Source: a virus
Virus record (IMG/VR): IMGVR_UViG_3300020558_000266
Location: 1-56,528 of that record
Direction: 5' to 3' (one strand)
DNA: 56,528 nt
Below, one piece after another: positions 3,024 to 55,589 of the stretch. The stretch's first letter is position 1, and each line of letters starts with the position of its first letter. The position numbers and the translations under genes were made by a program. The notes beneath the pieces are model-generated. The model was not told the DNA's origin. It saw nothing but the letters and a program-made list of their open reading frames with translations, and did not search any database.

Positions 3024-4235
3024 ATGTCTAAAATCAAAGTATTAGTTGTCCCATCTGATAGAACAGGTGTGGGTAAATTCAGGTCAGTTGACCCTCATGT
3101 CTTCCTACAAAATTTATACGGAAATGAATTCCATGTTGATATAGTTTATGACCCATCATATGATGATATGAACTTTTGGAAGGAGTATCAAATCGTTGCA
3201 TATCATAGAAGTATTGGTCATGATTTTGAAAGAGCTCACGCATTAATTCAAAAATTAAATGACCTTGGAATTGTAACTATTTGTGATATTGATGATTATT
3301 GGATGCCGGGTAAAGAACACCCTATTCACGACATTATTCGAGTTAATAAGATTAATGAAAAAATCGTCGCAAATCTTAGAGTTTCCAAATATGTTACAAC
3401 AACAACTGAATTATTTGCGGACGAGATTCGTAAATACAATAAAAATGTTGTGGTTTTTCCAAACGCAATTAATCCAAATGAACCTCAATTCAAAGAACCT
3501 ACAATAGAATCAGATAGAATGAGAGTTGGGTGGTTAGGTGGGTCATCACATTTACACGATTTACAATTATTAGATTTTACAAGGATTTCTCAATGTAAAG
3601 ACAAACTACAATTTGTTCTATGTGGATTTGATACGAGAGGAACTGTGACCGAGATTAATCAACAAACAGGTGAACATAAAAAAAGAAACATCTTACCTCA
3701 CGAAACGGTTTGGGCTCAATATGAGAAGATATTCACAAAAAATCTTACAACGGTTTCTGAAGAGTATAAAAAATATTTGTTACAATATACCCAAGAAACA
3801 AAATACCCAAATGAGTTAAATGAAGCATATGTTAGAGTTTGGACACAACCTGTAACATCTTATGCGAAGAATTATTCAAAATTTGATATATCTTTAGCTC
3901 CAATTAAAAACCACATGTTTAACCGAATGAAATCTCAATTGAAAGTGATTGAAGCAGGATTTTACAAGAAAGCAATTATCGCGTCAAATATTGGGCCATA
4001 TACCATAGATTTGAAACATTGTTTAGAACATGGTAATTTTGTTGATGGAAATGCTATGTTGGTTGACGAAAAAAGAAATCACTCTGATTGGTCTAAGTAC
4101 ATTGAAAAATTGGTTAAAAATCCAAACATGGTTAAAGATATGGGTGAAAGGTTATATGAAACCGTAAAGGACAAATATGACTTGAATAATGTAACAAAAG
4201 ATAGAGCTTCATTTTATAAATCAGTAATCAAATGA
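3024..4235 (+). CDS. Glycosyltransferase, GT-B fold (GT4-like)
   Basis: 403 residues, the usual length for a single GT-B enzyme. The N-terminal half has Rossmann-like strands (KIKVLVVPSDRTGVGKFR; ICDIDDYWMPG). Residues about 165-180 (RMRVGWLGGSSHLHDL) match the start of the nucleotide-sugar-binding half, and a stretch near 310-330 (KSQLKVIEAGFYKKAIIAS) corresponds to the conserved E-A-G region that binds the donor phosphate in GT4-type enzymes. It opens the long sugar operon and its stop overlaps the next ATG. It probably adds a sugar to a virion or host surface glycan; donor and acceptor are unknown. Confidence 0.75.
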   Translation: MSKIKVLVVPSDRTGVGKFRSVDPHVFLQNLYGNEFHVDIVYDPSYDDMNFWKEYQIVAYHRSIGHDFERAHALIQKLNDLGIVTICDIDDYWMPGKEHPIHDIIRVNKINEKIVANLRVSKYVTTTTELFADEIRKYNKNVVVFPNAINPNEPQFKEPTIESDRMRVGWLGGSSHLHDLQLLDFTRISQCKDKLQFVLCGFDTRGTVTEINQQTGEHKKRNILPHETVWAQYEKIFTKNLTTVSEEYKKYLLQYTQETKYPNELNEAYVRVWTQPVTSYAKNYSKFDISLAPIKNHMFNRMKSQLKVIEAGFYKKAIIASNIGPYTIDLKHCLEHGNFVDGNAMLVDEKRNHSDWSKYIEKLVKNPNMVKDMGERLYETVKDKYDLNNVTKDRASFYKSVIK

Positions 4236-4933
4236 TAAACATACCATTAACAAAACTTTTATTTTTAGATATTGAAACGGTTGGAGTCCAACCTGATTGG
4301 GAATCTCTCAAAACGAACAGACCCGAGTTGGCATTTCAATTTGAAAATTACCACGATTGGTTTCAAAAAAGATTTCCTGAAGATGCCGACAAACCTGTCG
4401 GGGATATGTTTGTTAACCGCTCAGCGTTAGTTCCTGAGTTTGCAAGGATTGCATGTGTAAGTGTTGCTTTCGTAACTGACAAAGGGGAAACCAAAATGCA
4501 ATCATTTAGTAATCCCGATGAAAAAGTGATGTTACAAGAAGTTCAAAAACTATTACATAGAGTTAGTGAATTAGGATTCTTTTTGTGTGGACACAATGTT
4601 AAAGGATTTGATATTCCGATGTTGGCAAAACGAATGATAATGAATGGGATTATGCCACCAAAAATATTACCCGGACACGATACTAAGCCATGGGAAATTA
4701 AAGCGTTAGATACCAAAGAAGTTTGGCAATATGGTGGATATGGTTCAATCGCATCATTAGAACTCATGTGTGTATGTTTAGGTGTTGAGTCTTCTAAAAA
4801 TATGGAAGTAACCGGAAACAAAGTTCATGAAGCTTTTTGGGGGAAAAAAGATATCGAAGGTATTGTAAAATATTGTGAAAAAGACGTATCGGTGTTAATC
4901 GATGTCATAAAAAAATTAAATGAATTAAAATAA
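4232..4933 (+). CDS. 3'-5' exonuclease (DEDD superfamily, PolB-exo-like)
   Basis: 233 residues. The three DEDDy exonuclease motifs are visible: ExoI at 11-16 (FLDIET, with D13 and E15), ExoII near 127-136 (GHNVKGFDIPM) and ExoIII near 210-216 (YCEKDVSVL, with Tyr four residues before Asp). It resembles the stand-alone exonuclease domains related to family B DNA polymerases, with no polymerase domain attached. It would degrade single-stranded DNA 3' to 5', perhaps in proofreading, repair or recombination. It overlaps the upstream stop by 4 bases and the downstream ATG by one. Confidence 0.8.
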   Translation: MINIPLTKLLFLDIETVGVQPDWESLKTNRPELAFQFENYHDWFQKRFPEDADKPVGDMFVNRSALVPEFARIACVSVAFVTDKGETKMQSFSNPDEKVMLQEVQKLLHRVSELGFFLCGHNVKGFDIPMLAKRMIMNGIMPPKILPGHDTKPWEIKALDTKEVWQYGGYGSIASLELMCVCLGVESSKNMEVTGNKVHEAFWGKKDIEGIVKYCEKDVSVLIDVIKKLNELK

Positions 4934-5559
4934 TGTTAGATTTAAATAATATGGGGGCATTTGACCCAAAAATAAAAGAAGAAATTGCCAAACAATTTGA
5001 AAAAATTCAGTCAGAATTAGGGATAGAACCTGATGAAGAATACCAAAAAGAATTAGAAGAAATGTTAGGTCTTTCAATTGAAGACATGGAGGACGAGATT
5101 AATCTGATGTCAAAAACAAGAATAATTAAAGTTGAATTAACAAATGAAGATTCTGTTTTTCCAAAATATGCATATCCGTCTGATTCGGGATTTGATTTAC
5201 ATGCAGCAGAAGAAGTAATTATAGGACCATTTGGAAGAGCCTTAGTCCCAACAGGACTAAAAGTTTCATTTGAAGAAGGTTATGAGATTCAAGTTAGACC
5301 TAAAAGCGGATTGGCAATTAAACAAGGGTTAACGGTTCTTAACACTCCGGGAACTGTAGACCAAGGATATACAGGAGAAATACAAGTGATTGTTTTCAAC
5401 ACAAATAATACGACCGTAACAATTCCTAAAGGAATGAAAGTAGGTCAAGGTGTTTTATGTCCTGTTGTTCAAGGAAAGTATGTTGTATTTGAACAAGTGA
5501 ATAAAGTTGAGGACAAAGACAGAGGTAATAATGGATTCGGTAGTACTGGAATAATTTAA
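4933..5559 (+). CDS. dut: dUTP diphosphatase with N-terminal extension
   Basis: 208 residues. Hydrolyses dUTP to dUMP and PPi, keeping uracil out of DNA and feeding dTMP synthesis. Trimeric dUTPase motifs are clear: I DSGFDLHA (84-91), II VRPKSGLA (121-128), III GTVDQGYTGEI (140-150, catalytic Asp at 143) and V RGNNGFGSTG (197-206). The core is about 145 residues as usual, but about 60 extra acidic helical residues precede it. These are rich in Glu and may bind a partner. A Met at residue 59 (MSKTRIIKVEL) could give the bare enzyme. Confidence 0.9.
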   Translation: MLDLNNMGAFDPKIKEEIAKQFEKIQSELGIEPDEEYQKELEEMLGLSIEDMEDEINLMSKTRIIKVELTNEDSVFPKYAYPSDSGFDLHAAEEVIIGPFGRALVPTGLKVSFEEGYEIQVRPKSGLAIKQGLTVLNTPGTVDQGYTGEIQVIVFNTNNTTVTIPKGMKVGQGVLCPVVQGKYVVFEQVNKVEDKDRGNNGFGSTGII

Positions 5560-5568
5560 TATTAAGAA

Positions 5569-7197
5569 ATGATAACAATAGGATATTCAACAAGAGAACA
5601 TAACCCAAAATTTATTGAATACTTGAAAAAAAGTTCAGGATTCAAAAAAGTTGAGGTGATTGAAAAAATTAATAATGGAGAGAAATCTTTATCTGAAGTT
5701 TATAATGAGATTATCTCAGAATCAAAAACTGATATAGTCGTATTATGTCATGATGACATTTATTTTGACACTTCAAGTTGGTATTATAAACTTAAGTCTC
5801 ATTTTGAAAATAGTGATTATGGGATTTTGGGGGTTGCCGGGACAACTGAAATGCCAACATCAGGTCAATGGTGGGAAGTACGAAGAAAAATGATTGGTAT
5901 TGTAAACCATGAGAGTGGTGGAAAAAAATGGACATCAAAATACTCGGAAGATTTGGGTAAATCAATTAGAGAAACAGTTATCGTTGACGGTGTTTTTATT
6001 GCGTTAAGTAAGTCGAGAATTAAACATAATTTTGATGAAGAGTTTAAAGGTTTCCATTTTTACGACATTGGGTTTTGTTTTAAAAATCAAATAGAAGGTG
6101 TTAAGGTTGGGGTGATTTCAAACATTAGAATTACACACAAATCTATTGGTCAAACCAATCAACAATGGGAAGAAAATAAAAATTTATTCGCCCAAAAATA
6201 TAGTGAAATTTTACCAGTAAAAATTCCATTTGACCCAAATAGAAAATTAAAAGTTTTATTGTCTTGTATCTCATTTAGAAACTTTACAGGCTCAGAATTA
6301 TATGTTTTTGAATTAGCAAAAAGTTTAATCAAGTTAAACTGTAGTGTTACAGTATTATCACAAATTGGTGGTCCTGTGACTGATATGGCTAATAAACTTG
6401 GTATTAAATGTGTTTCATTTGAAAACGCACCTGGATTTAAACTTGGTGACGGACAATGGGGAATGAATACACCTGAAGGATTTAAACCGTCAACACCAAA
6501 TACATTGTATAGAGTTTCAGATGTAGATTACGACATTATTCATTTTCAACATAAACCTGTTGCGGAAAGAATACTTAGTATGTATCCTGAATTACCTAAG
6601 ATAAGTGCAATTCATTCAGAAGTTATTTCATTAGAAGACCCTGTTGTTGACCCAACAATTAAAAAATACATTGCAATTCGTCCTGAGATTAAGGAACACA
6701 TGATTAACAATTTTGACATACCTGAAGAAATGATTGAGGTAATTTATAATCCTGTTGATAATGAAAAGTTCCAATCTAAAACAGTATCTGAAGAAAATTA
6801 TGTTTTGTTTGTTGGTACCATAGATTATTTAAGAAAAGAAACAATCTTGGATTTAATTGAATACACCAGAGAACTTGGAAAAGAACTTTGGTTAGTTGGT
6901 GAAAACAATGGGAATTATTTGGAAAATGTTTTGTTGGAAGACCATGTTAAACATTTTCCATCAACTTGGAAAGTTGAAGACTTCATTTTAAAGTCATATG
7001 AAACAGCTGGAATTCAATTAGGTAGAACAACAATTGAAAGTTGGATGTGCGGAAAATCAAGTTGGATTTACAAAGTAGATAAGGGTGGATTTATTTTATC
7101 AAAAGAAAAATTTGACCCTCCATCAGATATTGAAAAATATCACACTTTAAAAGTATCACAACAAATAAAAGACGAATATATTAAAATTTTATCGTAA
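5569..7197 (+). CDS. Two-domain glycosyltransferase (GT2-like + GT4-like fusion)
   Basis: 542 residues. Residues 1-215 look like a GT-A family 2-type domain: an opening strand MITIGYSTREHN, an acidic site VVLCHDDIYF near 57-66 that stands where the metal-binding DxD lies, and a VDGVFIALSKSR block. Residues 225-542 start a new Rossmann fold (KLKVLLSCISFRNFTGSELYVFELAKSL) and continue as GT-B family 4, with VEVIYNPVDNEKF and an acidic site near ESWMCGKSSW. Such fusions often add two successive sugars. It begins 10 bases after the dUTPase stop in the sugar operon. Confidence 0.75.
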   Translation: MITIGYSTREHNPKFIEYLKKSSGFKKVEVIEKINNGEKSLSEVYNEIISESKTDIVVLCHDDIYFDTSSWYYKLKSHFENSDYGILGVAGTTEMPTSGQWWEVRRKMIGIVNHESGGKKWTSKYSEDLGKSIRETVIVDGVFIALSKSRIKHNFDEEFKGFHFYDIGFCFKNQIEGVKVGVISNIRITHKSIGQTNQQWEENKNLFAQKYSEILPVKIPFDPNRKLKVLLSCISFRNFTGSELYVFELAKSLIKLNCSVTVLSQIGGPVTDMANKLGIKCVSFENAPGFKLGDGQWGMNTPEGFKPSTPNTLYRVSDVDYDIIHFQHKPVAERILSMYPELPKISAIHSEVISLEDPVVDPTIKKYIAIRPEIKEHMINNFDIPEEMIEVIYNPVDNEKFQSKTVSEENYVLFVGTIDYLRKETILDLIEYTRELGKELWLVGENNGNYLENVLLEDHVKHFPSTWKVEDFILKSYETAGIQLGRTTIESWMCGKSSWIYKVDKGGFILSKEKFDPPSDIEKYHTLKVSQQIKDEYIKILS

Positions 7198-8352
7198 ATG
7201 AAAATTGGGATTATTGGATGTGATATAGTGGGACTTGCATTTGGATTATTATGTGAAGAACAGGGACATGATGTATTAATTTCAGATGAGAATGAAGATT
7301 TTATTTATAATTTGAATCAAAAAGTTTGTCTAACTAACGAACCTTTTATTCAAAGTTTGTTGTTGAGCAGTATTCATTTATCGGCAACTACCAACCCAAT
7401 TGAAGTTATTAAACGGTCAGATATTATATTTACTTTTGCCGAAATTAAGTCTTCAATTGAAGGTTCATATGACACCACAAAAATATTTGACACAACTAAA
7501 CATTTTTTTACTTCGACATCATTAGATATTCCGTTATATGATAAAAAATTTGTAGTGTGTTCCACAACAAATCCTGGGGATGTTGAGCAAATTCAAAAAA
7601 GATTGTCAATGTTTAATATTGAGGTTGCATACAACCCTCCAATTATTACTCACGGTGAATTAGTTAATAGTTTCCGAAATTCAAACACAATTATTATTGG
7701 TTCTGAGTATGATAAAATAAAAGAAGATTTATCTATAATTTATAGACAAATCAATATTGATTCGGTTTATCTTTATTTAATGTCAATCAAATCTGCTGAA
7801 GTTGCAAAAATAGGTATTGATGGATTTTTAGCAACAAAAATAACATACGCGAATTTAATATCAAATTTGATGGGAAAAATGGACCTTAACGAAGAAGTGG
7901 ATTTAGTTTTAGATACGATAGGAGGTATTTCAAGAATTGGTAAAAAATACTTAAAAAAAACTTATGGATTTACGGAACCTTCAACAATTAAATCAAGTAG
8001 AGCATTAATCAAATATTTAAAAGATTTGAATATTAATTCTACACTACCTTCATCAATTAAATCCGATAATGACTATCAAATCGAATTTCTTAAAATTAAA
8101 TTTATTGAATCAAATCCTGATAAATCAATACCTTTTATTTTTAGTGACTTAGGTAATTTTAAAGAAATGGTATTTAATGAATCCTCAGAAGTAAAATTAT
8201 GTATTGACTTACTGACTGAAGGATATACAATATACACATATTATGATGGTAAAATACCGTCAGAATTATTAAAATTAAGTGAATCTTACGAAAATAGATT
8301 AAAGTTTTTTAAACCGGGAACTTCTCCCGAAGGATATAAAATTAAATTATGA
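7198..8352 (+). CDS. UDP-glucose/GDP-mannose dehydrogenase homologue lacking the catalytic Cys
   Basis: 384 residues. The N-terminal Rossmann fold (MKIGIIGCDIVGLAFG) and the central helix block (AEVAKIGIDGFLATKITYANL, 200-220) match nucleotide-sugar 6-dehydrogenases, including the conserved Lys residues 204 and 214. The catalytic-Cys motif, normally GFGGxCFPKD, reads YGFTEPSTIKSSRAL (256-270), so the Cys is replaced by Ser or Thr. Oxidation of a sugar C6 alcohol to a carboxylate through a thiohemiacetal should therefore not work normally. The protein may do a partial oxidation, another reduction, or have lost activity. Confidence 0.7.
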   Translation: MKIGIIGCDIVGLAFGLLCEEQGHDVLISDENEDFIYNLNQKVCLTNEPFIQSLLLSSIHLSATTNPIEVIKRSDIIFTFAEIKSSIEGSYDTTKIFDTTKHFFTSTSLDIPLYDKKFVVCSTTNPGDVEQIQKRLSMFNIEVAYNPPIITHGELVNSFRNSNTIIIGSEYDKIKEDLSIIYRQINIDSVYLYLMSIKSAEVAKIGIDGFLATKITYANLISNLMGKMDLNEEVDLVLDTIGGISRIGKKYLKKTYGFTEPSTIKSSRALIKYLKDLNINSTLPSSIKSDNDYQIEFLKIKFIESNPDKSIPFIFSDLGNFKEMVFNESSEVKLCIDLLTEGYTIYTYYDGKIPSELLKLSESYENRLKFFKPGTSPEGYKIKL

Positions 8353-9059
8353 TAATATTAACAACATCGTATAATTGTGAAAAATTCATAGAAAAATCAT
8401 TATTAAGTATAATGAGTCAAAGATTTAAAGATTTTACTTGTTATATAACCGATGATTTATCTACAGATAACACAATCAATATAATTAAGAATACTATTAA
8501 AAATGATAGTAGGTTTATTCTTATTGAGAACAAAACTAAGATGTATCAACCCGGTAATTACGACCAAGTCATTAGGGGGTTAGATATTCCCGACGATGAG
8601 ATTTGTGTTGAAGTTGATGGGGACGATTGGCTACCTAATTCAAATGTTTTTGAATTAATTAATGAAGTTTACAAGGACGAAAATATATGGATGACAAGTG
8701 GGTCTTTTAAATATCATGATGGTAGACCAGGATTTGCCAATCCTCCAACAAATTTTACAAACATTAGAAATCAAACATTCACTTTATCTCACATGAGAAC
8801 ATGGAAATCTTGGTTATGGAAGAAAATTGATGTAGAAGATTTGAAAGATTCAAATGGAAATTATTGGGGTGTTGCAGGGGATTTATCGTTTATGTTCCCC
8901 ATGGTTGAGATGTCAGGGGGAGAACATTTTAAATTTATTCCTGAAGTTTTATATGTCTATAATGAATCGAATCCAATTAACGACCATAAGGTTAATCTTA
9001 ATAATGTTTTTGACATTGCAAAAAAAATTAGAAATAAAAAAATATATAAAAAATTATAA
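8349..9059 (+). CDS. Glycosyltransferase family 2
   Basis: 236 residues with a typical GT2 N-terminus: MIILTTSYNCEKFIEKSLLSI, then ITDDLSTDNT (donor-binding Asp) and EVDGDDWLP near 90-98 containing the metal-binding DxD. The C-terminal part has WGVAGDLSFMFPMVEM, where the family's catalytic Asp region falls. The length fits a single GT-A domain with no membrane anchor. It overlaps the upstream stop by 4 bases (ATGA) and ends 2 bases before the GT6 gene. Confidence 0.85.
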   Translation: MIILTTSYNCEKFIEKSLLSIMSQRFKDFTCYITDDLSTDNTINIIKNTIKNDSRFILIENKTKMYQPGNYDQVIRGLDIPDDEICVEVDGDDWLPNSNVFELINEVYKDENIWMTSGSFKYHDGRPGFANPPTNFTNIRNQTFTLSHMRTWKSWLWKKIDVEDLKDSNGNYWGVAGDLSFMFPMVEMSGGEHFKFIPEVLYVYNESNPINDHKVNLNNVFDIAKKIRNKKIYKKL

Positions 9060-9061
9060 AT

Positions 9062-9745
9062 ATGAAAATTGGTTTATTAATCATAGGAACAAACAAATAC
9101 ACACAATTTCTACAACGTTTAATAACTAGTGCCGATAAACATTTTTTAACTGACAAAGATGTTACTTATTTTATTTTTACAAATAAAGATGATTTTACCA
9201 TAGAGACGAATAGAAATGTGGTTATGGTTCCGGTAGAACACAAGCCATGGCCCTTTATGACGTTATATCGATATAAAATCTTCACACAAAATAGTGACTT
9301 TCTAAAAGATATGGACTATCTCTATTATTGTGATGCAGATATGTTATTTGTAGGTGATTTTGGTGATGAAATTTTAGGTGAGTTGGTTGCAACACAACAT
9401 CCAGGATTTTATGGTAGAAGAGGCACTCCGGAACATAGACCTCAATCTTTGGCATATGTTGGACCTAATGAAAAAATGCAATATTTTGCAGGGGGTTTTA
9501 ATGGGGGTTCAAAAAATGGGTTTCTTAAAATGGCAAAAGAAATAGATAAAAACATAGACATCGATTTTAATAATGGGGTAGTTGCAATTTGGCACGACGA
9601 AAGTCATATGAATAGATATTTTATTAATAACCCACCAACAATAATTTTATCACCTAGTTATTGTTATGGTGAATTAATGAATATACCATTTGAAAAAAAA
9701 TTATTATCGTTAGATAAAAACAATGTGGAAATTAGACAAGAATGA
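9062..9745 (+). CDS. Family GT6 glycosyltransferase (blood-group A/B transferase type)
   Basis: 227 residues, soluble, about the size of bacterial GT6 catalytic domains. Retaining alpha-1,3-Gal or GalNAc transferases of this family share: PWPFMTLYRYKIF (62-74), the DxD site CDADMLF (90-96), TQHPGFYGR with PQSLAYV (111-133), YFAGGFNGGS (141-150) and WHDESHMNRYF (177-187) followed by LSPSYCYGE. All are present in order. Most bacterial GT6 enzymes carry NxN in place of DxD, whereas vertebrate enzymes have DxD; this one has DAD and should use a metal ion. Two genes downstream lies a GT11 fucosyltransferase that could make its classical acceptor. Confidence 0.85.
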   Translation: MKIGLLIIGTNKYTQFLQRLITSADKHFLTDKDVTYFIFTNKDDFTIETNRNVVMVPVEHKPWPFMTLYRYKIFTQNSDFLKDMDYLYYCDADMLFVGDFGDEILGELVATQHPGFYGRRGTPEHRPQSLAYVGPNEKMQYFAGGFNGGSKNGFLKMAKEIDKNIDIDFNNGVVAIWHDESHMNRYFINNPPTIILSPSYCYGELMNIPFEKKLLSLDKNNVEIRQE

Positions 9746-10392
9746 TATCAATATTATTAGCGACATTTAATGGACATAAATTTATCGAAGAGTCAATAAA
9801 TTCAATATTAAACCAAACTTTTAATGATTTTGAGCTTTTAATAGGTTTAAATGGTGAAAATGAAGCAACAAAAAATATCCTAAAAAACTATAATGATAAC
9901 AGGATAAAAATATTTGACTATGGTAATGATAAAGGTAAATCTAAAACTTTAAACAAATTGTTACAAGTTGCAAAATATGATTGGGTTGGAATTCAAGATG
10001 ATGATGACGTTTGGTTACCTCAAAAATTAGAAACTCAAATTAAATTTATCGAACATTTTGATGTAATAGGTAGTTTAATTAACTATATTTCTGAATCCGG
10101 TAAAATAATAGGTTCCCCAAATTTAGCAGTTAACCACGATGAAATAAAAATAAAATCATTATCAGGAGATAATAACATTGCAAACACGAGTGCTATTTTT
10201 AAAAAAGAATGTGCTTTAGAAGTTAACGGTTGGTCAACTAATTTAGATGGGATTGAAGATTTTGATTTTTGGTTAAAATTAATTAGAAATAATAAAAAAA
10301 TAATAAATGTTAATGAAGTGTTAGTTTTACACCGATTACACGGTAAAAGTAATTTTAATACTAAAAAACACGATATAAATAGTATATTATAG
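9742..10392 (+). CDS. Glycosyltransferase family 2
   Basis: 216 residues. Standard GT2 GT-A core: MISILLATFNGHKFIEESI at the start, a central IQDDDDVWLPQKLE (about 83-96) carrying the metal-binding acidic motif, then an INGW-like segment (EVNGWSTNLDGIEDFDFWLKL) typical of the acceptor-side region. It lies between the GT6 and GT11 genes, overlapping the former by 4 bases, so it likely adds a sugar to the same glycan. Specificity cannot be read from the sequence. Confidence 0.85.
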   Translation: MISILLATFNGHKFIEESINSILNQTFNDFELLIGLNGENEATKNILKNYNDNRIKIFDYGNDKGKSKTLNKLLQVAKYDWVGIQDDDDVWLPQKLETQIKFIEHFDVIGSLINYISESGKIIGSPNLAVNHDEIKIKSLSGDNNIANTSAIFKKECALEVNGWSTNLDGIEDFDFWLKLIRNNKKIINVNEVLVLHRLHGKSNFNTKKHDINSIL

Positions 10393-10394
10393 AT

Positions 10395-11195
10395 ATGATT
10401 TATTGTAAACTTAAGGGCGGTTTAGCAAACATGTTATTCCAAATTGCGGGAGCGTTGGGTATCGCTAAACGATATGGAATGACCACTTCATTCCCAAACC
10501 TAAATGAACACTTGAAGTATTTAAATCAAGATAATTTTTATAATTCTAAACTTAAACATGCTGAGGATTATAAAATAATTGTGGGTAAAATCAATCAATC
10601 CCCACCTCCATCACGTCAACTAAAATATATTCATTACCCGTTTCACTATCATGAAATACCACTGAATAATGAAGATTATTTGATTGAAGGTTTTTTCCAA
10701 AGTGAAAAATATTTTAATAATGCAAAGACTGAGATATTCGAATTGTTTGAGGAACCATCAATAGTTGAAAAAATAATAGGGGAAAAGTATCCTCAATATT
10801 CCGGTAGAACAACTTCACTACACGTAAGACGTGGGGATTATTTAAAAATGCCGGATTATCACCCCACACAAACTATATCGTATTATGAAAAGGCGATGGG
10901 AATTTTAAAAGATGATACTGATTATTTTTTGGTCTTTTCAGATGATATTGAATGGTGTAAAGAAAATATCGTCGGTGATAATATTATTTACATCGACAGT
11001 GAAATTGATTATATTGAATTGTTTTTAATGACCAGATGTAATAATAACATAATTGCAAATTCATCATTTTCATGGTGGGGGGCATGGTTAAATAAAAATG
11101 AAAATAAAAAAGTCGTATCTCCAACATTATGGTTCGGTAGTGGTGTTGGTGAAAATACAAATGATATAATACCTGAAAACTGGATAAAAATATAA
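10395..11195 (+). CDS. Alpha-1,2-fucosyltransferase, family GT11
   Basis: 266 residues, close to bacterial GT11 enzymes (about 280-300). Family blocks are in order: N-terminal KLKGGLANMLFQIAGALGIA, the GDP-fucose-binding HVRRGDYL, FSDDIEWCKENI, and the closing block NSSFSWWGAWLN. These inverting enzymes transfer Fuc from GDP-Fuc to Gal, giving the Fuc-alpha1,2-Gal (H-type) unit. GDP-mannose 4,6-dehydratase, the first enzyme towards GDP-Fuc, is encoded 2.4 kb downstream. The second enzyme (GDP-fucose synthase) is not in this window. Confidence 0.88.
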   Translation: MIYCKLKGGLANMLFQIAGALGIAKRYGMTTSFPNLNEHLKYLNQDNFYNSKLKHAEDYKIIVGKINQSPPPSRQLKYIHYPFHYHEIPLNNEDYLIEGFFQSEKYFNNAKTEIFELFEEPSIVEKIIGEKYPQYSGRTTSLHVRRGDYLKMPDYHPTQTISYYEKAMGILKDDTDYFLVFSDDIEWCKENIVGDNIIYIDSEIDYIELFLMTRCNNNIIANSSFSWWGAWLNKNENKKVVSPTLWFGSGVGENTNDIIPENWIKI

Positions 11196-11198
11196 AAC

Positions 11199-11612
11199 AT
11201 GGAAAATATATATTCAAAAGTAGACCCTAACAAATTATTACACATTATTGTTAGAAAAGAAGATTTAGTTAAGGGCAGAAATGAAATTGTCCCTACAAAT
11301 AATTTCATACAATGTGCAATTCTTAATATGGATGAGGGTAAAACTTTTAAACCTCACAAACATATTTGGAAAGAAAGAACTCGAAATGTAATTGCTCAAG
11401 AAAGTTGGGTTGTGATTGAGGGTTCCGTTAAATGTGTTTTTTACGATGTTAATGACCAAGTAATTGCGGAACCAATATTATATCCGGGTGACGCGTCATT
11501 CACTCTTGAAGGAGGTCACACTTATGTAATTTTAGAAGATAATACTTTAGTATACGAATATAAAACAGGACCTTACGAAGGACAATCATTAGACAAAACT
11601 TTTATCGAATAA
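11199..11612 (+). CDS. Cupin-domain protein (sugar-cluster type)
   Basis: 137 residues forming one cupin barrel. Metal or substrate ligands are suggested by PHKHIWKERTRN (about 48-59), VVIEGSVKCVFYD (71-83) and LYPGDASFTLEGGHTYVI (93-110). Cupins of this size occur in O-antigen clusters either as nucleotide-sugar keto-isomerases (FdtA/WxcM type) or as WbuC-type proteins of unclear role. Position, directly before an acyltransferase and near a DegT aminotransferase, supports a sugar-modifying role. I cannot decide between isomerase and non-enzymatic function. Confidence 0.7.
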   Translation: MENIYSKVDPNKLLHIIVRKEDLVKGRNEIVPTNNFIQCAILNMDEGKTFKPHKHIWKERTRNVIAQESWVVIEGSVKCVFYDVNDQVIAEPILYPGDASFTLEGGHTYVILEDNTLVYEYKTGPYEGQSLDKTFIE

Positions 11613-12148
11613 TGATTAAAATTTATGGTAATAATAATTTTGTAGACGAAAGAGCTATAATAAAAAGAGAATTAATAATTAATGGTTCTCACAATGCGGT
11701 GGACGCAGGTGTATACATTTCAACAAATGTTACACTAAACCATTACACTCATATATCACCATATGTAACAATAATCGGTGGTAGTGAAGGTAGATTTGAG
11801 TCTAAAGGTTTTAATAATATCATGGCAGGAGCCAGAATTATCTGTGGTTCTGACAGATTTGATGATAGTGGGTTATTTGGAGCTATGATACCTGAAGAAT
11901 ACAAAGGAACTCAAGTTATTAAACCAGTTATTATGGAAGAATATTCTAATATAGGTAGTAATGCAATAGTATTACCAGGTTCTATTTTACGTAAGGGTGT
12001 ATTATTGGCTGCGGGTAGTTTATTAATTGGGGATACCGAGGAATGGGGAGTTTATAAGGGTAATCCTGCGGTTTTAGTAAAAAAAATTGATGGTGAAAAA
12101 ATAATTAAATTAGGTGAAAAACTTAAAAATAATGAACTATATATTTGA
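11612..12148 (+). CDS. Hexapeptide-repeat acyltransferase (left-handed beta-helix)
   Basis: 178 residues with imperfect hexapeptide repeats through the protein (VDAGVYISTNVTLNHYTHIS; YSNIGSNAIVLPGSILRKGV; GVYKGNPAVLVKK at the end). It matches CoA-dependent sugar O- or N-acetyltransferases, which act as trimers with acetyl-CoA bound between subunits. Neighbouring DegT aminotransferase and GDP-mannose dehydratase genes make N-acetylation of a 4-amino-4,6-dideoxy sugar a likely job. The start overlaps the cupin stop by one base; the next gene overlaps its 3' end by 17 bases. Confidence 0.82.
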   Translation: MIKIYGNNNFVDERAIIKRELIINGSHNAVDAGVYISTNVTLNHYTHISPYVTIIGGSEGRFESKGFNNIMAGARIICGSDRFDDSGLFGAMIPEEYKGTQVIKPVIMEEYSNIGSNAIVLPGSILRKGVLLAAGSLLIGDTEEWGVYKGNPAVLVKKIDGEKIIKLGEKLKNNELYI

Positions 12149-12854
12149 CATTGACGCTGGAGGTATTTTTTCAAAATATATGTTTGGAGTGCAAAATGCC
12201 ATAAAATACGATTTTGATTCAATTTATTTAAACATCATAGACGATAGAACAATCCCAAATGCGTTTGATTTTGTTTTAGACCAAGAAATACAAAACACAT
12301 TTACTAAAATATTTTGTGAAAATTTAGGAACATATGATAAAAAAAACCCTATAGAAAATTCGATAAATTTTAACTATTATAAAGAATTGGCTGAAAAAAT
12401 TAAAATTAAACAAACCATACTTGATAAAGTGAATAAATACGTTAAAAAATTCAATATTAATGAAAACACAATTGGTGTTCATTTAAGACTAACTGATATG
12501 AATATTCATCATAAGAAACAATATGGTGTTTTAACTTTTGAAAATTTTGTTTCTAATATGGATACTAATAAAGATTATTTTATTGCATCAGATAACCATG
12601 AAAGTATTCAAAAATTAAAAGAAATCTTTGGGAATAAGATAAAATATGTCCCTAAAATGATTAGGTGTGAAAAAGAAAACGACGACTCAACTATTTTACA
12701 AATTGATAATTTTAAAAATGAGAAGTTTTGGGTTGAGTCATTCATTGAAATGTTACTCTTGTCGAAGTGTGGTAAAGTAATATGTAGGACCAGTAATTTA
12801 ATCAACGCGTCAATAATACATTCAAATAACATAAAAGAAATAATTAGAATATGA
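12132..12854 (+). CDS. Fucosyltransferase-like protein (GT-B, NodZ/O-FucT-like)
   Basis: 240 residues from the ATG at 12132 (MNYIFDIDAGG), chosen over the ATG at 12114 because it overlaps the upstream gene less and starts at the first conserved-looking strand. Residues about 110-150 hold TIGVHLRLTDMN and DYFIASDN, like the GDP-fucose-binding HxRxxD and A-S-D-N blocks of NodZ/FUT8/POFUT-type enzymes. The C-terminal segment (MLLLSKCGKVICRTSNLINASII) is the usual end of that fold. Donor specificity for GDP-Fuc is inferred, not shown. Confidence 0.6.
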   Translation: MNYIFDIDAGGIFSKYMFGVQNAIKYDFDSIYLNIIDDRTIPNAFDFVLDQEIQNTFTKIFCENLGTYDKKNPIENSINFNYYKELAEKIKIKQTILDKVNKYVKKFNINENTIGVHLRLTDMNIHHKKQYGVLTFENFVSNMDTNKDYFIASDNHESIQKLKEIFGNKIKYVPKMIRCEKENDDSTILQIDNFKNEKFWVESFIEMLLLSKCGKVICRTSNLINASIIHSNNIKEIIRI

Positions 12855-13585
12855 AAATTAATTATAATCCATGGCCAATAGGTAAGGTCCCAAAAGAACT
12901 TCAAAGACCCGAATTAGATAAATTAAAAGAATTAGGTTACCATTGGGATGACCCTAGAGACGTTGTGACAATGTTCGAAGAAAAAGTTGCAAAGTTTTCA
13001 GGTTCAAAATATGCAGTTTCGGTTGATTGTTGCAGTCACGGAATATTTTTGTCGTTACAATATTTAAAATCGATTAAAGAAATTGATGAAAATACCACAA
13101 TAACAATCCCATCAAAAACTTATATTTCACCTCCAATGCAAATTATTCATTCAGGGTTAAAAGTCGAATTTGAGGATATTGAGTGGTCAGGTGTTTATCA
13201 TTTAAAAGGTAGCAGAGTTTGGGACGGTGCTGTTAGATGGACTAAAGATATGTATATTGGCGATAATTCATTACAAGTAATTTCTTTTCAAATGAAAAAA
13301 AGAATACCTATTGGTAAAGGTGGGATAATCTTAACGGATGATGAAGAAGCGTATAAATGGTTAAAATTGGCATCTTATGATGGTAGAAATCTAAATACCC
13401 CCTACACAGATGATGAACACATAACAATCATGGGTTATCATATGTATATGACACCTGAAGACGCAGCTAGAGGTATTATACTAATCGATAATGTAAATAA
13501 AGATTCTGAAATTCATGAAGATAGTGGAAACCACACCAATTATACTGATGTTTCAAACATAATTAAAAAAATATTAAATAACTAA
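12851..13585 (+). CDS. DegT/DnrJ/EryC1/StrS-type sugar aminotransferase (short)
   Basis: 244 residues against about 370 for typical members. N-terminal blocks are intact: FEEKVAKFSGSKYAVSVDCCSHGIFLSL (42-69), TITIPSKTYISPP and a Trp-Asp-Gly-Ala site (124-127) equivalent to the family's E-D-A-A. A candidate PLP lysine lies in SFQMKKRIPIGKGG (145-158). The C-terminal domain, which completes the substrate pocket, is mostly missing. It may be a compact variant or partly degraded. Beside GMD and an acyltransferase it fits conversion of a 4-keto-6-deoxy sugar to the 4-amino sugar. Confidence 0.75.
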   Translation: MKINYNPWPIGKVPKELQRPELDKLKELGYHWDDPRDVVTMFEEKVAKFSGSKYAVSVDCCSHGIFLSLQYLKSIKEIDENTTITIPSKTYISPPMQIIHSGLKVEFEDIEWSGVYHLKGSRVWDGAVRWTKDMYIGDNSLQVISFQMKKRIPIGKGGIILTDDEEAYKWLKLASYDGRNLNTPYTDDEHITIMGYHMYMTPEDAARGIILIDNVNKDSEIHEDSGNHTNYTDVSNIIKKILNN

Positions 13586-13587
13586 AA

Positions 13588-14568
13588 ATGAAAAAAGCAT
13601 TTATTACAGGAATTAACGGCCAAGACGGTTCTTATTTATCAGAATACCTTTTAGGTTTAGGGTATGAAGTTCATGGTATTGTTAGAAGAAATTCGGTATC
13701 AGAAAATCAACAAAATAGATTTTCAGATGAAATTAGAGAAAAATTAAAAATTAGTTATGGCGATTTATTAGACCAGGGTAGTTTAGAAAGATTACTAAGT
13801 GAAATACAACCTGACGAAATTTATAATCTCGCAGCTCAAAGTCACGTTAGGGTTAGTTATGAAATACCACAATTTACCGTCCAAACAAATGCGTTAGGGG
13901 TTCTTAACATATTAGAAGCCTATAGACGAGCATGTCCAAATGCAAAATTTTATCAAGCAAGTTCATCCGAAATGTTCGGGAATTCAATTGATGATGATGG
14001 GTTTCAGAGAGAGACTACAAGGATGACACCGGTCAGCCCTTATGGATGTTCAAAAGTATTTGCATATAACATAGTTAAAAATTATAGAAACGCATATAAT
14101 TTACACGCTTGTAATGGTATTTTATTTAACCATGAATCACCAAGAAGAGGGTCTAACTTTGTAACAAATAAAGTTGTTAAAACTGCGGTTAGAATTAAAT
14201 TAGGTCTTGAGAATAAACTTGAATTGGGTAATATGGATTCATATAGAGATTGGGGTCATTCTAAAGATTATGTAAGGGCAATGCACTTAATTATAAATAA
14301 CGAATTACCTGATGATTTTGTTGTATCCACAAGAGAGACTCACTCAGTTAGAGAGATGGTTGAATATGTTTTTGGAAAACTTGAATTAGATTATAACCAA
14401 TATGTTACCCAAAATTTAAAATTTTTAAGACCCGAAGAGTTAAAATTTTTGAAAGGAGATTCAACAAAAATTAGGACTGAATTAGGGTGGGAACCGGAAT
14501 ATACATTTGAAACAATGTTAGATGAAATGATTGAATATTGGATAAATTATTATAAAACTAATAAATAA
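13588..14568 (+). CDS. gmd: GDP-mannose 4,6-dehydratase
   Basis: 326 residues (family usually 340-370). Converts GDP-D-mannose to GDP-4-keto-6-deoxy-D-mannose, the precursor of GDP-fucose, GDP-rhamnose and GDP-perosamine. Extended SDR features: NADP-binding ITGINGQDGSYL (6-17), the RRNS signature (33-36), NLAAQSHVRVSYE (80-92), SSSE (125-128) and the catalytic pair Y152/K156 in PYGCSK. ILFNHESPRRGSNFVTNK is the GDP-sugar-binding block. It directly follows the DegT gene and precedes a DUF6165-like gene. Confidence 0.93.
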   Translation: MKKAFITGINGQDGSYLSEYLLGLGYEVHGIVRRNSVSENQQNRFSDEIREKLKISYGDLLDQGSLERLLSEIQPDEIYNLAAQSHVRVSYEIPQFTVQTNALGVLNILEAYRRACPNAKFYQASSSEMFGNSIDDDGFQRETTRMTPVSPYGCSKVFAYNIVKNYRNAYNLHACNGILFNHESPRRGSNFVTNKVVKTAVRIKLGLENKLELGNMDSYRDWGHSKDYVRAMHLIINNELPDDFVVSTRETHSVREMVEYVFGKLELDYNQYVTQNLKFLRPEELKFLKGDSTKIRTELGWEPEYTFETMLDEMIEYWINYYKTNK

Positions 14569-14951
14569 TGATACAAATCCCTGTTAGTGTTGGAGAATTA
14601 ATCGATAAATTATCAATCCTATATATAAAACAAACTATGATATCTGATAACTCTAAATTAGAGTTTATTAATAAAGAATTTGAATTGTTATATAATTTTT
14701 CATCTTCATATTTAAACGATGAAAAACTTTTAGAGTTATATCACCAACTAGTTAATGTTAATACTACATTGTGGAAAATTGAAGATGAATTAAGAATAAT
14801 TGAATCTCAAAACATTTTCGATAATAAATTTATTGAGTTATCTAGATTAGTATATAAAAATAACGATATTAGGTTTACTATTAAAAATACAATAAATCAA
14901 TTAACTAATTCTGAAATACAAGAACAGAAAGATTATGTTAATTACCAATAA
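14568..14951 (+). CDS. DUF6165-like protein
   Basis: 127 residues matching, from memory, the DUF6165 pattern: N-terminal IPVSVGELIDKLSILYIK, central LWKIEDELRIIE, then FIELSRLVYKNNDIRFTIKNTIN and a terminal QKDYVNYQ. Members usually sit beside glycosyltransferase genes but have no known activity. It is all-helical and soluble. It overlaps the GMD stop by one base. Confidence 0.65.
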   Translation: MIQIPVSVGELIDKLSILYIKQTMISDNSKLEFINKEFELLYNFSSSYLNDEKLLELYHQLVNVNTTLWKIEDELRIIESQNIFDNKFIELSRLVYKNNDIRFTIKNTINQLTNSEIQEQKDYVNYQ

Positions 14952-14968
14952 ACTTAAAAAAATTTTAA

Positions 14969-15718
14969 ATGGGGAATCCTAGAGCTAAAAGACCATCTTC
15001 AACTGCAACCACAGGACAAGAGGTAAATACTAAAACAAGAAAAGAATTAATCTGTACAATTCTAAAGAAAAAAACTAAAGAAAAATTTTTAACTGTAAAT
15101 CAAAAGAAATATTATGATACTTTAGTCTCAAGTGAAATTACAATATGTTCTGGTCCAGCAGGGGTTGGAAAAAGTTACATAACAATGAAAGCTGCGGTAG
15201 ATTTACTTGCAGACCCAACCACTCCATATGAAAAAATTATTATAGTTAGACCAGCAGTAGAGGCTGAAGAAAAATTAGGTAGTTTACCCGGAAATGTTGA
15301 AGAAAAATTAGACCCGTATATTTTCCCATCTTATTACTTATTAAACAAAATAATCGGTAAAGAAAATAGAGAAAAATTAAAAGAAATTGAGGTTATTGAA
15401 GTATTTGCTTTGGCATTTATGAGAGGGATGAATATTGACAATTCAATTTTAATTTTTGAGGAAGGTCAAAATGCCACTCCAAGTCAAATGAAACTACTAT
15501 TGACAAGAATAGGGTTTAATAGTAAATTTTTCATATCAGGAGATGTTGAACAATCCGATAGATATAAAAATAAAACTCATAGTGGGTTATGGGATGCAAT
15601 GGAAAAGTTTAGAAATGATGAATACGTCTCAACTTTTGAGTTTAAAGATAGAAATGATATTGTTAGAAATCCTTTAATTAGTAAAATTTTACAAAAATAC
15701 GATAACGAAACGGAATGA
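14969..15718 (+). CDS. phoH: PhoH-like P-loop ATPase
   Basis: 249 residues. Walker A at 62-69 (GPAGVGKS), the PhoH-specific IIIVRPAVEAEEKLGSLPG block and Walker B-like SILIFEEGQNATPSQMK, followed by FFISGDVEQSD, are all present. PhoH proteins form ring ATPases, probably RNA helicases, and are common in large and marine phages; their phage role is unsettled. A basic Ser/Thr-rich tail (1-40) precedes the core. It lies 17 bases after the DUF6165-like gene. Confidence 0.92.
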   Translation: MGNPRAKRPSSTATTGQEVNTKTRKELICTILKKKTKEKFLTVNQKKYYDTLVSSEITICSGPAGVGKSYITMKAAVDLLADPTTPYEKIIIVRPAVEAEEKLGSLPGNVEEKLDPYIFPSYYLLNKIIGKENREKLKEIEVIEVFALAFMRGMNIDNSILIFEEGQNATPSQMKLLLTRIGFNSKFFISGDVEQSDRYKNKTHSGLWDAMEKFRNDEYVSTFEFKDRNDIVRNPLISKILQKYDNETE

Positions 15719-16305
15719 GAATCGCAATAGAATTAAATGGAGTATTACGAGATACCTTAAAAAAAATACAACAAGAGTATGAGAAGTGGTATTTAGAAAA
15801 CCCATTCAAAGAAGACGAAGAAAAATCTGATTACGAAGTAATTTCTGATTTAACAACTTTAGATATTTCAAAACATCTTAAGTTTAAAGATGAAGATGAA
15901 TTGTACAATTTTTTATACAAGGAACACACTATGGAAATTTTTGGTCACGCAGGTTCAGTAGAAACTTCAAGTATGATGGACTTTAATGACTTTTATTTAG
16001 ATACGAGAGATAATCATGATATTCTGATAGTTTCCGATGAAATGGGTAAATCAAAACCAGCTTCATTATTTTTCATATCAAAATTTGGTTGTCTTGTTGA
16101 AACAGTTAAATTTTATAGTGAATCAACAATAAATTCAATGTGGGAATCAATAGATGTTTTACTTACCGCGAATCCTAACTTATTATTAAACCATCCTAAA
16201 GATAAAGTTGTTATTAAATATGAAACATCATATAATCAAGAAATTAATGTAGAACATTCAATAACAAAATTAAAGGAATTACAAAATAAAATAAAAGAAC
16301 TATGA
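15715..16305 (+). CDS. HAD-like protein with altered catalytic Asp pair
   Basis: 196 residues. The N-terminus MRIAIELNGVLRDT lines up with the HAD nucleophile loop (DxDGVLxDT), but both Asp positions are changed (Glu at 6, Asn at 8). Other HAD landmarks remain: ILIVSDEMGKSKPASLFFISKFG resembles motif II/III, and a C-terminal VDVLLTANPNLLLN stands where D-D is expected. It may be a non-catalytic binding protein. It overlaps the PhoH stop by 4 bases and the next ATG by 4. Confidence 0.55.
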   Translation: MRIAIELNGVLRDTLKKIQQEYEKWYLENPFKEDEEKSDYEVISDLTTLDISKHLKFKDEDELYNFLYKEHTMEIFGHAGSVETSSMMDFNDFYLDTRDNHDILIVSDEMGKSKPASLFFISKFGCLVETVKFYSESTINSMWESIDVLLTANPNLLLNHPKDKVVIKYETSYNQEINVEHSITKLKELQNKIKEL

Positions 16306-16592
16306 TTGAAGTATTAGGTGAAAACTACTTTATTGATTTAGATAAAGTGGAGGAATATTTGGACATGTCAGACCAAAATTTCGAAAATGTATCTTCTGGT
16401 GAAACAGAAGTAAAAATTAATATGTTAAAATTTGAAATGGTAAAAATGTTATTTGACACTATTTTAACTGAACATAATGACATTGATGATAAAATTTTGA
16501 ACTCAAGTTCAAAATCAGGAGGTAATACCAGCATACCTTTTAGGATTGCATTCAACAGCTTATTAAATAAAAAACTTATAAATCGATATTAA
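16302..16592 (+). CDS. Hypothetical protein
   Basis: 96 residues, acidic in its N-terminal half, with a predicted helical C-terminus (residues 40-96). There is no cysteine, membrane segment or motif I recognise. It starts inside the preceding stop (ATGA overlap) and ends just before a glycosyltransferase gene, so it is a member of the operon. Function unknown. Confidence 0.6.
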   Translation: MIEVLGENYFIDLDKVEEYLDMSDQNFENVSSGETEVKINMLKFEMVKMLFDTILTEHNDIDDKILNSSSKSGGNTSIPFRIAFNSLLNKKLINRY

Positions 16593-16593
16593 A

Positions 16594-17646
16594 ATGGATA
16601 CATCATTAAATGAAAAAGTAAAAAAATCGATACAGAACCTAAGGGAAAAACAATCAAGAATTTATTTTCTTGTTCAAGACACCAAAGGAAATGCTAAAGC
16701 TTCTGTTAGATTAATTTATCAAATGGCGAAATCGCTATTAGATGCAGGTTTTAACCCTATAATTCTCCACGAGAAAAAAGAATATGCAGGTGTTATTGCT
16801 TGGTTAGATGAGGAATATATGTCAATACCTCACATGTCAATTGAAGGCCAAAATTTGGAAATTTCACCGGAAGATTTCATAATCATTCCTGAGGTATTTG
16901 GTTATGTTATGGAACAAATTAAAAATTTACCTTGTGGTAAAATTGTTTTAACTCAAAACTATAATCATATTGTTGAGACATTACAACCTGGTCAAAATTG
17001 GGCTCAATATGGTGTTTTCAAATGTTTAACTACAACAACAAAACAACAAGAGTATATTGAGACAGTAATGAGACAATCGTCTTTTGACATAATCAAACCT
17101 TTAATAACTGATAATTTTTACCCTAAGAATCTTCCACCGATGCCAATTATTGGTGTTCATACTAAAGACCAATCAGATACAATTAATATAATTAAAACAT
17201 TCTACCTTAAATTCCCTCAATATAGATGGTTCACTTTTAGAGATTTAAGAGGTCTTTCAGAAAAAGAGTTTGGTAATTCATTAAGAGAATGTTTTATGAG
17301 TGTTTGGATTGACGATGAAAGCGGTTTTGGAACTTTTCCATTAGAGTCTATGGCATCAGGAGTTCCTGTTATTGGGAAAGTTCCTTACATTCAACCTGAA
17401 TGGATGAACGAAGACAATGGGATATGGGTAACAAACAAACCAATGATGTGTGATTTCATTGCTGACTTTATTCAAAATTGGTTAGAAGATAATATTAAAC
17501 CTGAACTTTATGATAATATGAAGAAGACGGTAGAATCCTATACTAATAAACAAGAGTTTGACTCTAGTGTTATTTCATTATTTGAAAATTACTTAAATAC
17601 AAGAGCTGACTCATTCGAACAACAAATATCTAAAACTGAAGAATAA
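16594..17646 (+). CDS. Glycosyltransferase, GT-B fold
   Basis: 350 residues. Residues 20-50 form the first Rossmann unit (RIYFLVQDTKGNAKASVRLIYQMAKSLLDAGF). The C-terminal half carries ESGFGTFPLESMASGVPVIGK (about 247-266), the E-x7-E/SxxxG pattern that binds the donor nucleotide-sugar phosphates in GT4-type enzymes. No membrane anchor. It is followed within 2 bases by a GT2 gene, and the pair probably acts on the same glycan. Confidence 0.8.
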   Translation: MDTSLNEKVKKSIQNLREKQSRIYFLVQDTKGNAKASVRLIYQMAKSLLDAGFNPIILHEKKEYAGVIAWLDEEYMSIPHMSIEGQNLEISPEDFIIIPEVFGYVMEQIKNLPCGKIVLTQNYNHIVETLQPGQNWAQYGVFKCLTTTTKQQEYIETVMRQSSFDIIKPLITDNFYPKNLPPMPIIGVHTKDQSDTINIIKTFYLKFPQYRWFTFRDLRGLSEKEFGNSLRECFMSVWIDDESGFGTFPLESMASGVPVIGKVPYIQPEWMNEDNGIWVTNKPMMCDFIADFIQNWLEDNIKPELYDNMKKTVESYTNKQEFDSSVISLFENYLNTRADSFEQQISKTEE

Positions 17647-17647
17647 T

Positions 17648-18454
17648 ATGGAAAATAAATTATCAATATCAATTATATTACCGATAAAATCGTCTAAATC
17701 TAGAGATTTTAATGAATATTTTGAAAAAGCAATAACATCAATCAATAATCAATCAGTAGGTGTTGAGGAATTAGTTATTGTCCACACATCTGAAGAATCG
17801 TTAATCGAATTTTTAAACAACTATGATTTTGGTTCATTAAACGTTGTTAAATTATTATGGGATAAAGAACCTAGTTATGCTGAACAGGTTAATTACGGAA
17901 TTAAAAAGGCTAAAGGTGAGTGGATATCACTTTTTGAATTTGACGATGAATATTCCTCAATTTGGTTTAAAAATGTTAAAAAATATATCGAATCATATCC
18001 TGAATCTAAAGTATTTTTACCGGTTGTCGTTGAAACCGATGAGAAAGGAGTATTTGCAGGGTTTACTAACGAAGCAACATTTGCCGCTAACTTCAGTCAA
18101 GAAATGGGAGTACTAACTAATGAAACATTACAAGACTATCAAAATTTCCAAACTGCAGGTGCAGTAATTAAAAAACAAGTTATTGAGGATTTCGGTGGTT
18201 TTAAACCTTCAATTAAATTAACTTTTGTTTATGAGTTTTTACTAAGATTAACTTATAATTCGGTTCATATTATGTCAATACCTAAACTTGGATATAAACA
18301 CACTAATATGAGAGAAGGTTCAATATTTTGGAATTATAAACATGGTGAAAACAAAATGTTAGAAGATGAAGTTAAATTTTGGGTTCAAACGGCAAAAAAA
18401 GAATTTTTCTTTGTAGAAGATAGAAACATAAATTATCAAGTTGAAAATGAATAA
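17648..18454 (+). CDS. Glycosyltransferase family 2-like
   Basis: 268 residues. The start LSISIILPIKSSKSRDFNEYFEKAI and the following INNQSVGVEELVIVHTS are GT2-like. The acidic stretch EWISLFEFDDEYSS (about 98-111) stands where the DxD metal site lies, though spaced FDDEY. It lacks an obvious C-terminal membrane segment. It overlaps the sigma-factor start by one base, which ties glycan genes and the late regulator into one transcript. Confidence 0.7.
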   Translation: MENKLSISIILPIKSSKSRDFNEYFEKAITSINNQSVGVEELVIVHTSEESLIEFLNNYDFGSLNVVKLLWDKEPSYAEQVNYGIKKAKGEWISLFEFDDEYSSIWFKNVKKYIESYPESKVFLPVVVETDEKGVFAGFTNEATFAANFSQEMGVLTNETLQDYQNFQTAGAVIKKQVIEDFGGFKPSIKLTFVYEFLLRLTYNSVHIMSIPKLGYKHTNMREGSIFWNYKHGENKMLEDEVKFWVQTAKKEFFFVEDRNINYQVENE

Positions 18455-53158: not shown

Positions 53159-53188
53159 TAAATATACGAATAATTTGTCTTTTGTCAA
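53159..53188 (-). promoter_or_regulatory. Host-type promoter for the small lipoprotein gene
   Basis: TTGACA-type element (TTG at 53188-53186), 19-base spacer, TATATTTA at 53166-53159 (last base of consensus differs). It overlaps the end of the aminotransferase gene. Confidence 0.55.
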
Positions 53189-54459: not shown

Positions 54460-54548
54460 TGGAGGAAGGTGAGGGGCTCGAACCCTCGCGACTTTTACAT
54501 CCTACTTGTTTAGCAAACAAGCCCCTTCACCAACTTGGGTAACCTTCC
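54460..54548 (-). tRNA. tRNA-Ser (GCT)
   Basis: Acceptor GGAAGGT/ACCTTCC, anticodon stem CTTGT/ACAAG with loop TTGCTAA (anticodon GCT), long variable arm, T arm GAGGG-TTCGAGC-CCCTC. CCA seems encoded (54462-54460). The discriminator base is T, whereas G is usual for Ser. Confidence 0.88.
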
Positions 54549-54549
54549 A

Positions 54550-54870: not shown

Positions 54871-54890
54871 AATATAATTTTATTAAAATA

Positions 54891-54921
54891 CAAATATAAA
54901 AAAAATCTCACTAATTTCCAA
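54891..54921 (-). promoter_or_regulatory. Host-type promoter for the membrane protein
   Basis: TTG at 54921-54919, 20-base spacer, TATATTTG at 54898-54891. Confidence 0.65.
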
Positions 54922-54951
54922 ATCAAAAGGACATCATTTGTGAAAAAATTG

Positions 54952-55023: not shown

Positions 55024-55028
55024 ATTTG

Positions 55029-55100: not shown

Positions 55101-55105
55101 AATAG

Positions 55106-55177: not shown

Positions 55178-55184
55178 ATAAATG

Positions 55185-55266: not shown

Positions 55267-55277
55267 AATTAAATTTG

Positions 55278-55349: not shown

Positions 55350-55358
55350 ATTTTTTTG

Positions 55359-55430: not shown

Positions 55431-55440
55431 ATAAAATTTG

Positions 55441-55585: not shown

Positions 55586-55589
55586 TTTG

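Follow-up and report, generated by a model that had tools for sequence, protein, structure and literature searches.

The closest described systems to the locus studied here come from bacteria and from cyanophages. In Escherichia coli O86, the genes for the B-antigen O-unit encode WbnJ, WbnK, and WbnI, a GT2, a GT11, and a GT6 that act one after the other. This set is like the one described below, with the differences that it is bacterial, that its product is of the B type, and that the likeness is drawn by description rather than by sequence. The WbnJ/K/I pathway has been described (PMC4506291), and WbnI uses Fuc-alpha2-Gal (PMC4202792). A second bacterial enzyme, the A-antigen synthase BoGT6a of Bacteroides ovatus, forms the A unit from UDP-GalNAc and 2'-fucosyllactose (PMC3961637).

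In phages, the glycan clusters of T4-like cyanophages (P-SSM2, ACG-2014f, Bellamy, and DSL-LC02) hold a DxD-type GT6 together with a GT11, often with a GT2, a GDP-mannose 4,6-dehydratase (GMD), and a fucose synthase as well; GT6 and GT11 are annotated in some public records, and those of P-SSM2 and ACG-2014f already show both in one cluster. In cyanophages, GT6 had been noted by 2014, when one paper put the number of such phages at just two (PMC3961637), and a description of GT6-GT11 pairing in phages was not found in the literature searched. Here, we analyze IMG/VR virus record IMGVR_UViG_3300020558_000266, a 56.5-kb contig and a fragment of a phage genome (the window, 56,528 nucleotides in all), which likewise encodes a DxD-type GT6 and a GT11. 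It differs from the cyanophage clusters in belonging to another phage group and in carrying a distinct GDP-sugar cassette (WbuC, acetyltransferase, DegT, and GMD), where the cyanophages often have GT25 and fucose synthase. The reading we favor, at slightly short of an even chance, is that GT6 and GT11 meet on one galactose to build an A-type unit.

The phage and its glycan operon

Profile matches to a T4-type gp20 portal (6e-75) and gp23 capsid protein (7e-72), together with a gp17-like terminase, mark the window as T4-like myovirus DNA and confirm the phage origin proposed from the letters alone. The terminase is nearest to those of an uncultured 484-kb phage and of Flavobacterium phages, at just 24-27% identity, and the leaders of the 23 genes inspected in the surroundings of the operon are rich in A/T and show no evident Shine-Dalgarno motifs, as is usual in Bacteroidota. 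Leaders and terminase relatives together suggest a Bacteroidota host, and the contig probably derives from a large T4-like phage of such a bacterium. Elsewhere in the window lie genes for a ClpA/B-type ATPase (45088-47100), an M20-type peptidase (47328-48170), and a class I/II aminotransferase (53185-54420), nine tRNA genes (54460-55739), and, upstream of the operon, a small protein resembling WYL domains (1914-2312), whose PF13280 match only just reaches the cut-off.

The glycan genes form a tightly packed operon on the plus strand (about 3024-18454; gaps mostly -4 to +17 bases). It combines several nucleotide-sugar genes with nine that encode glycosyltransferases or proteins like them (Table 1); behind it come one late-sigma-like and one baseplate-like gene. 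The sequence-only reading had placed GT6 and GT11 one GT2 gene apart with GMD in the same operon, and open reading frames and Pfam profiles bear this out, with matches much stronger than chance would give (gaps of -4, then +2 bases from GT6 through GT2b to GT11); its genes and coordinates are real, while the operon is larger than it described. Scanning the operon for promoters and terminators yielded sites no more than in shuffles. GT2b is a recurrent neighbor of GT6 in the nearest phages and a candidate for making the acceptor backbone, and the glycosyltransferase pair at the far end is kept behind GMD-PhoH in relatives.

Table 1 Features of the glycan operon and of its GT6 active site
Feature	Position	Strand	Evidence
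Two-domain GT2/GT4 glycosyltransferase	5569-7197	+	PF13712 6.1e-28, PF13439 3.9e-9
Nucleotide-sugar dehydrogenase-like protein	7198-8352	+	PF03721 4.4e-15
GT2a, GT2 glycosyltransferase; in relatives often upstream of GT6 or GT11	8349-9059	+	PF00535 8.6e-15
GT6, 227 aa, predicted metal-dependent retaining alpha1,3-GalNAc(/Gal)-transferase	9062-9745	+	PF03414 1.6e-46
DAD, GT6 residues 91-93, metal-binding DxD motif	9332-9340	+	Aligns with BoGT6a N95-A-N97 and vertebrate DxD
AGG, GT6 residues 143-145, donor-selecting triplet (ABO residues 266-268)	9488-9496	+	Identical in GalNAc-transferring BoGT6a
WHDES, GT6 residues 177-181, catalytic Glu motif (BoGT6a E192)	9590-9604	+	Alignment
GT2b, GT2 glycosyltransferase	9742-10392	+	PF00535 3.4e-23
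GT11, 266 aa, predicted alpha1,2-fucosyltransferase	10395-11195	+	PF01531 3.3e-24; phrog_2644 1.6e-56
WbuC-family cupin, first gene of GMD cassette	11199-11612	+	TIGR04366 4.5e-11, just above cut-off
Hexapeptide-repeat sugar acetyltransferase-like protein	11612-12148	+	PF00132; NeuD/PglB-like 1.9e-11, below cut-off
Second fucosyltransferase-like protein with a fold of NodZ/FUT8/POFUT type (uncertain start, perhaps the ATG at 12132)	12114-12854	+	AF2, Foldseek
Short DegT-type sugar aminotransferase with PLP-lysine motif	12851-13585	+	PF01041 8e-17
GDP-mannose 4,6-dehydratase (GMD)	13588-14568	+	PF16363 3.3e-117; TIGR01472 387 bits, below 415 cut-off
GT1-like glycosyltransferase, far end of operon	16594-17646	+	Kept behind GMD-PhoH in relatives
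GT2 glycosyltransferase, far end of operon	17648-18454	+	Kept behind GMD-PhoH in relatives

The GT6 enzyme and its relatives

The assignment of the first of these enzymes to GT6 is beyond doubt. Its match to PF03414 spans the catalytic domain at 159 bits (cut-off 25), the best PDB relatives are BoGT6a (1.4e-44) and the human ABO transferase (3.3e-39), with alpha3GT more distant, and the AF2 model (pLDDT 92.9) has a GT-A fold that Foldseek superimposes on BoGT6a (4cjc) at TM 0.94 and on GTA at 0.92. The catalytic Glu in WHDE and the UDP-binding Lys are present. Identity to BoGT6a is 36-37% over the fold, and of the substrate-contact positions checked, taken from the BoGT6a list in PMC3961637, all are kept except N69, which is Met, and NxN, which is Asp-Asp; equivalents of His122 and Trp189 are also kept, as in nearly all GT6 examined, and hence do not discriminate. 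GTA carries Leu266/Gly268 and GTB Met266/Ala268, a pair that decides between GalNAc and Gal (PMC4692239, PMC4202792). The window enzyme has the residues expected for a GalNAc/Gal donor, with Gly at position 268, as in GTA, and its AGG triplet, as in BoGT6a, makes GalNAc the better guess. Differing from BoGT6a, which is NxN and metal-independent, it has DxD; since a bacterial DxD GT6 needs metal (PMC3961637), metal dependence is a fair prediction by analogy. With donor and acceptor residues that agree with those of BoGT6a, there is good support for an alpha1,3-GalNAc(/Gal)-transferase that depends on metal.

The sequence-only reading had taken the DAD site to be "as in animal enzymes" rather than bacterial ones, and had proposed a GT6 phylogeny as a check; neither comparison sustains the animal link. 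Among the matches listed, DxD occurs in 133 of the 134 phage or viral-contig GT6 sequences examined, and the lone exception, an NxN enzyme from a human-faeces record, is placed in the bacterial clade. With DxD usual in phages, DAD is uninformative on an animal source, and an animal origin of the gene deduced from it is rejected. In a tree of 158 sequences, the window enzyme falls in a phage-only clade of 17 (SH-aLRT 98), the NxN enzymes including BoGT6a form one clade (SH-aLRT 97), another clade of 22 DxD enzymes is mostly from Dependentiae, Chlamydiae, and unnamed bacteria (SH-aLRT 99), and the branch of the vertebrate enzyme is long and has no firm position.

The sequence-only reading had also suggested that the glycan could make the host surface resemble gut or animal glycans. 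These placements bear on the idea that the phage makes such a blood-group mimic, under selection for contact with glycans of the gut or of animals. All that speaks for it is that GT6 and GT11 are similar to enzymes of the ABO pathway; against it stand the annotated phage relatives, which are aquatic and nearly all from cyanophages, the NxN faecal phage enzyme within the bacterial clade, and the unplaced vertebrate branch, and we consider such mimicry extremely improbable.

Two groups of relatives deserve separate mention. A DxD clade in metagenome-assembled genomes of Dependentiae/Babeliales and Chlamydiae (loci L136-L160), mostly without GT11, is among the closest bacterial relatives of phage GT6. 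In one cyanophage clade (L003, L004, L005, L010, L012, L013, L014), whose GT6 often stands directly behind GT11, QGC replaces the AGG seen in the window, and to judge from this exchange the enzymes probably use another donor sugar.

GT11 and its association with GT6

The alignment of 10395-11195 contains the GT11 family motifs HVRRGD and NSSFSWWGAWL, and a PDB sequence search with the product gave no convincing relative. Characterized GT11 enzymes take GDP-fucose, and one of them forms alpha1,3 linkages (PMC4202792). The second fucosyltransferase-like protein has a GVHLRLTDM motif and matches no Pfam family above cut-off; its moderate AF2 model (pLDDT 76.8) finds NodZ (7.9e-9) and FUT8 (1.6e-7) by Foldseek and also resembles POFUT1, such that it may represent an undescribed phage fucosyltransferase family.

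The association between GT6 and GT11 was evaluated by locus scans, each covering the best 80 matches, on truncated contigs and with rows related by descent. Within these matches, GT11 lies at most 8 kb from GT6 in 52 of 66 non-redundant viral GT6 loci, versus 25 of 47 GMD-anchored loci (Fisher p 0.007, with rows related by descent). The base rate of GT11 in phage glycan clusters is high in any case, at 23/33 in GT25-anchored loci. Counting phage GT6 gene clusters, named phages included, 61 of 77 (79%) have GT11. Order within the clusters gives a different picture, as adjacent GT6-GT11 pairs in phages number 12 against 11.5 expected by within-cluster permutation, compared with 19 against 7.8 (p about 1e-5) in bacteria whose GT6 is NxN. 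A functional pairing is thus clear for bacteria, as in the E. coli O86 pathway, and no more than suggestive for phages, where the permutation does not support reading adjacency of the two genes as proof that they act together.

The main rival reading, which we rate only somewhat less probable than the favored one, is that GT6 and GT11 modify separate residues within a single complex glycan. The GT6 family includes enzymes with unfucosylated acceptors, namely alpha3GT and the Forssman synthase; in their manner, the window enzyme would add alpha1,3-GalNAc or Gal to an unfucosylated beta-Gal or GalNAc, GT11 would branch elsewhere, and the common operon would reflect mere membership of a large exchangeable set of glycosyltransferases. 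The chance-level phage permutation speaks for this reading, and the cyanophage GT25-anchored set, where GT6 and GT11 have no positive association, agrees with it, as do the 6 of 65 GT11-anchored loci with a GT6 (among the best 80 matches), three phage contigs of 210-332 kb, possibly partial, with GT6 and GT11 nowhere, and the nearest bacterial DxD clade, where a neighboring GT11 is mostly absent. However, GT11 is still commoner near GT6 than near GMD, H-acceptor enzymes outrank alpha3GT by both sequence and fold, and the bacterial pairing is clearly non-random.

GDP-sugar supply and the proposed glycan

Downstream of GT11, the window (11199-14568) and its relatives (L376-L450) share a cassette in the order WbuC, hexapeptide acetyltransferase, short DegT, GMD, and (PhoH), without fucose synthase. 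Among the matches listed, 63 GMD-anchored relatives have room upstream. Of these, 59 have a DegT homologue as the gene immediately before GMD, 55 have a WbuC cupin nearby, 51 have a hexapeptide acetyltransferase, only 2 have a fucose synthase, and 20 have GT11 immediately before WbuC; the short DegT has 195-253 aa in nearly all relatives and keeps its PLP-lysine region. A fucose-synthase query found no match in the window, itself a fragment, which of the two GDP-L-fucose pathway genes has GMD only, and none in eight of nine long relatives (up to 362 kb) with the GMD cassette; the ninth gave a weak epimerase-like match (28% identity, E 5e-14). GMD, an aminotransferase, and an acetyltransferase, all three found together here, are the logic of GDP-N-acetylperosamine synthesis, and by gene content the cassette fits a GDP-perosamine-type sugar better than GDP-fucose and is possibly a minimal GDP-N-acetylperosamine route. 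Thus, GMD is in the operon as the sequence-only reading had it, while its use as evidence for the fucose pathway does not hold: with this conserved cassette around it, GMD alone lends no support to GDP-fucose, let alone proof of its supply.

The GDP-sugar made by the window genes may be something other than fucose. In that case the short DegT would aminate the GMD product, the hexapeptide protein would acetylate it, and both GT11 and the NodZ-like protein would take this GDP-N-acetylperosamine-type sugar or another GDP-6-deoxy sugar as donor, so that no H or A unit would arise. The conservation of the cassette, the position of GT11 directly before WbuC in some relatives, and the lack of a convincing fucose synthase in the long ones argue for this scenario. 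Nevertheless, characterized GT11 enzymes use GDP-fucose, many Bacteroidota hosts could supply it, and in L016 (GMD, GT2a, GT6, GT2b, GT11, fucose synthase), L021, and L029 the GT6/GT11 block is accompanied by both GMD and fucose synthase, so that we consider the scenario quite unlikely. Including L018, where GMD and fucose synthase are again near GT6 and GT11, these loci indicate that the block in near relatives travels with a full GDP-fucose route.

For the A-type unit, the reading we favor, we envisage that a GT2 enzyme (probably GT2b) would place a beta-hexose, taken as galactose, on the growing chain, that GT11 would then add fucose alpha1,2 to that galactose, and that GT6, with Mn2+ or Mg2+ held through DAD, would attach GalNAc, or with less likelihood Gal, to this residue in alpha1,3 linkage. 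The unit would belong to a larger glycan, in which the GMD, short DegT, and acetyltransferase genes would account for a further, acetamido sugar of the GDP-perosamine type; the host, or phage genes beyond the contig, would supply GDP-fucose. This reading is favored by the proximity of GT6 to BoGT6a and the ABO synthases in sequence and fold, the AGG triplet, the GT11 motifs, the excess of GT11 near GT6 over GMD, the bacterial pairing, the near relatives with GMD and fucose synthase, and the second, NodZ/FUT8-like fucosyltransferase. It is weakened by the fucose-synthase searches in the window and the nine long relatives, the chance-level phage pairing, the unassociated GT25 set, the GT6 contigs and the nearest bacterial DxD clade without GT11, and the existence of GT6 enzymes acting on unfucosylated acceptors. 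ABO-like antigen synthesis, the central proposal of the sequence-only reading, accordingly keeps its families, donor site, and operon and loses its GMD argument, and synthesis of an A-like antigen by the phage is plausible.

The glycan would go onto the host surface or the virion, and the position of the operon beside late genes is compatible with either. Cyanophage authors prefer host-surface change as the glycan role (PMC9602691), and virion glycosylation is known in mycobacteriophages from work cited in PMC12619734. Near the capsid genes, 42492-43337 on the minus strand encodes a protein with a long Thr/Pro repeat (mucin-like), conceivably an acceptor for phage glycosylation; its N-terminus shows hardly any conservation among relatives, and a search for it as a conserved glycan acceptor gave one weak match.

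Enzyme sets of this kind are common in phages; GT6/GT11 phage clusters were already visible, as in P-SSM2, and the window adds a distinct GDP-sugar cassette; at least 557 GT6 relatives were confirmed in viral contigs in one scan. A broader and rather doubtful view is that T4-like phages of Bacteroidota and cyanobacteria are the largest non-animal reservoir of metal-dependent (DxD) GT6, that GT2, GT11, and GT6 here give virions or infected cells a genuine A-type antigen, and that the bacterial NxN enzymes are one derived branch. If the product is A-type, phages would carry part of the capacity for blood-group-like sugars among aquatic microbes, and the ABO enzyme family would gain a large metal-dependent viral branch; otherwise, what the locus offers is a phage cassette, conserved among relatives, for making a modified GDP-sugar.
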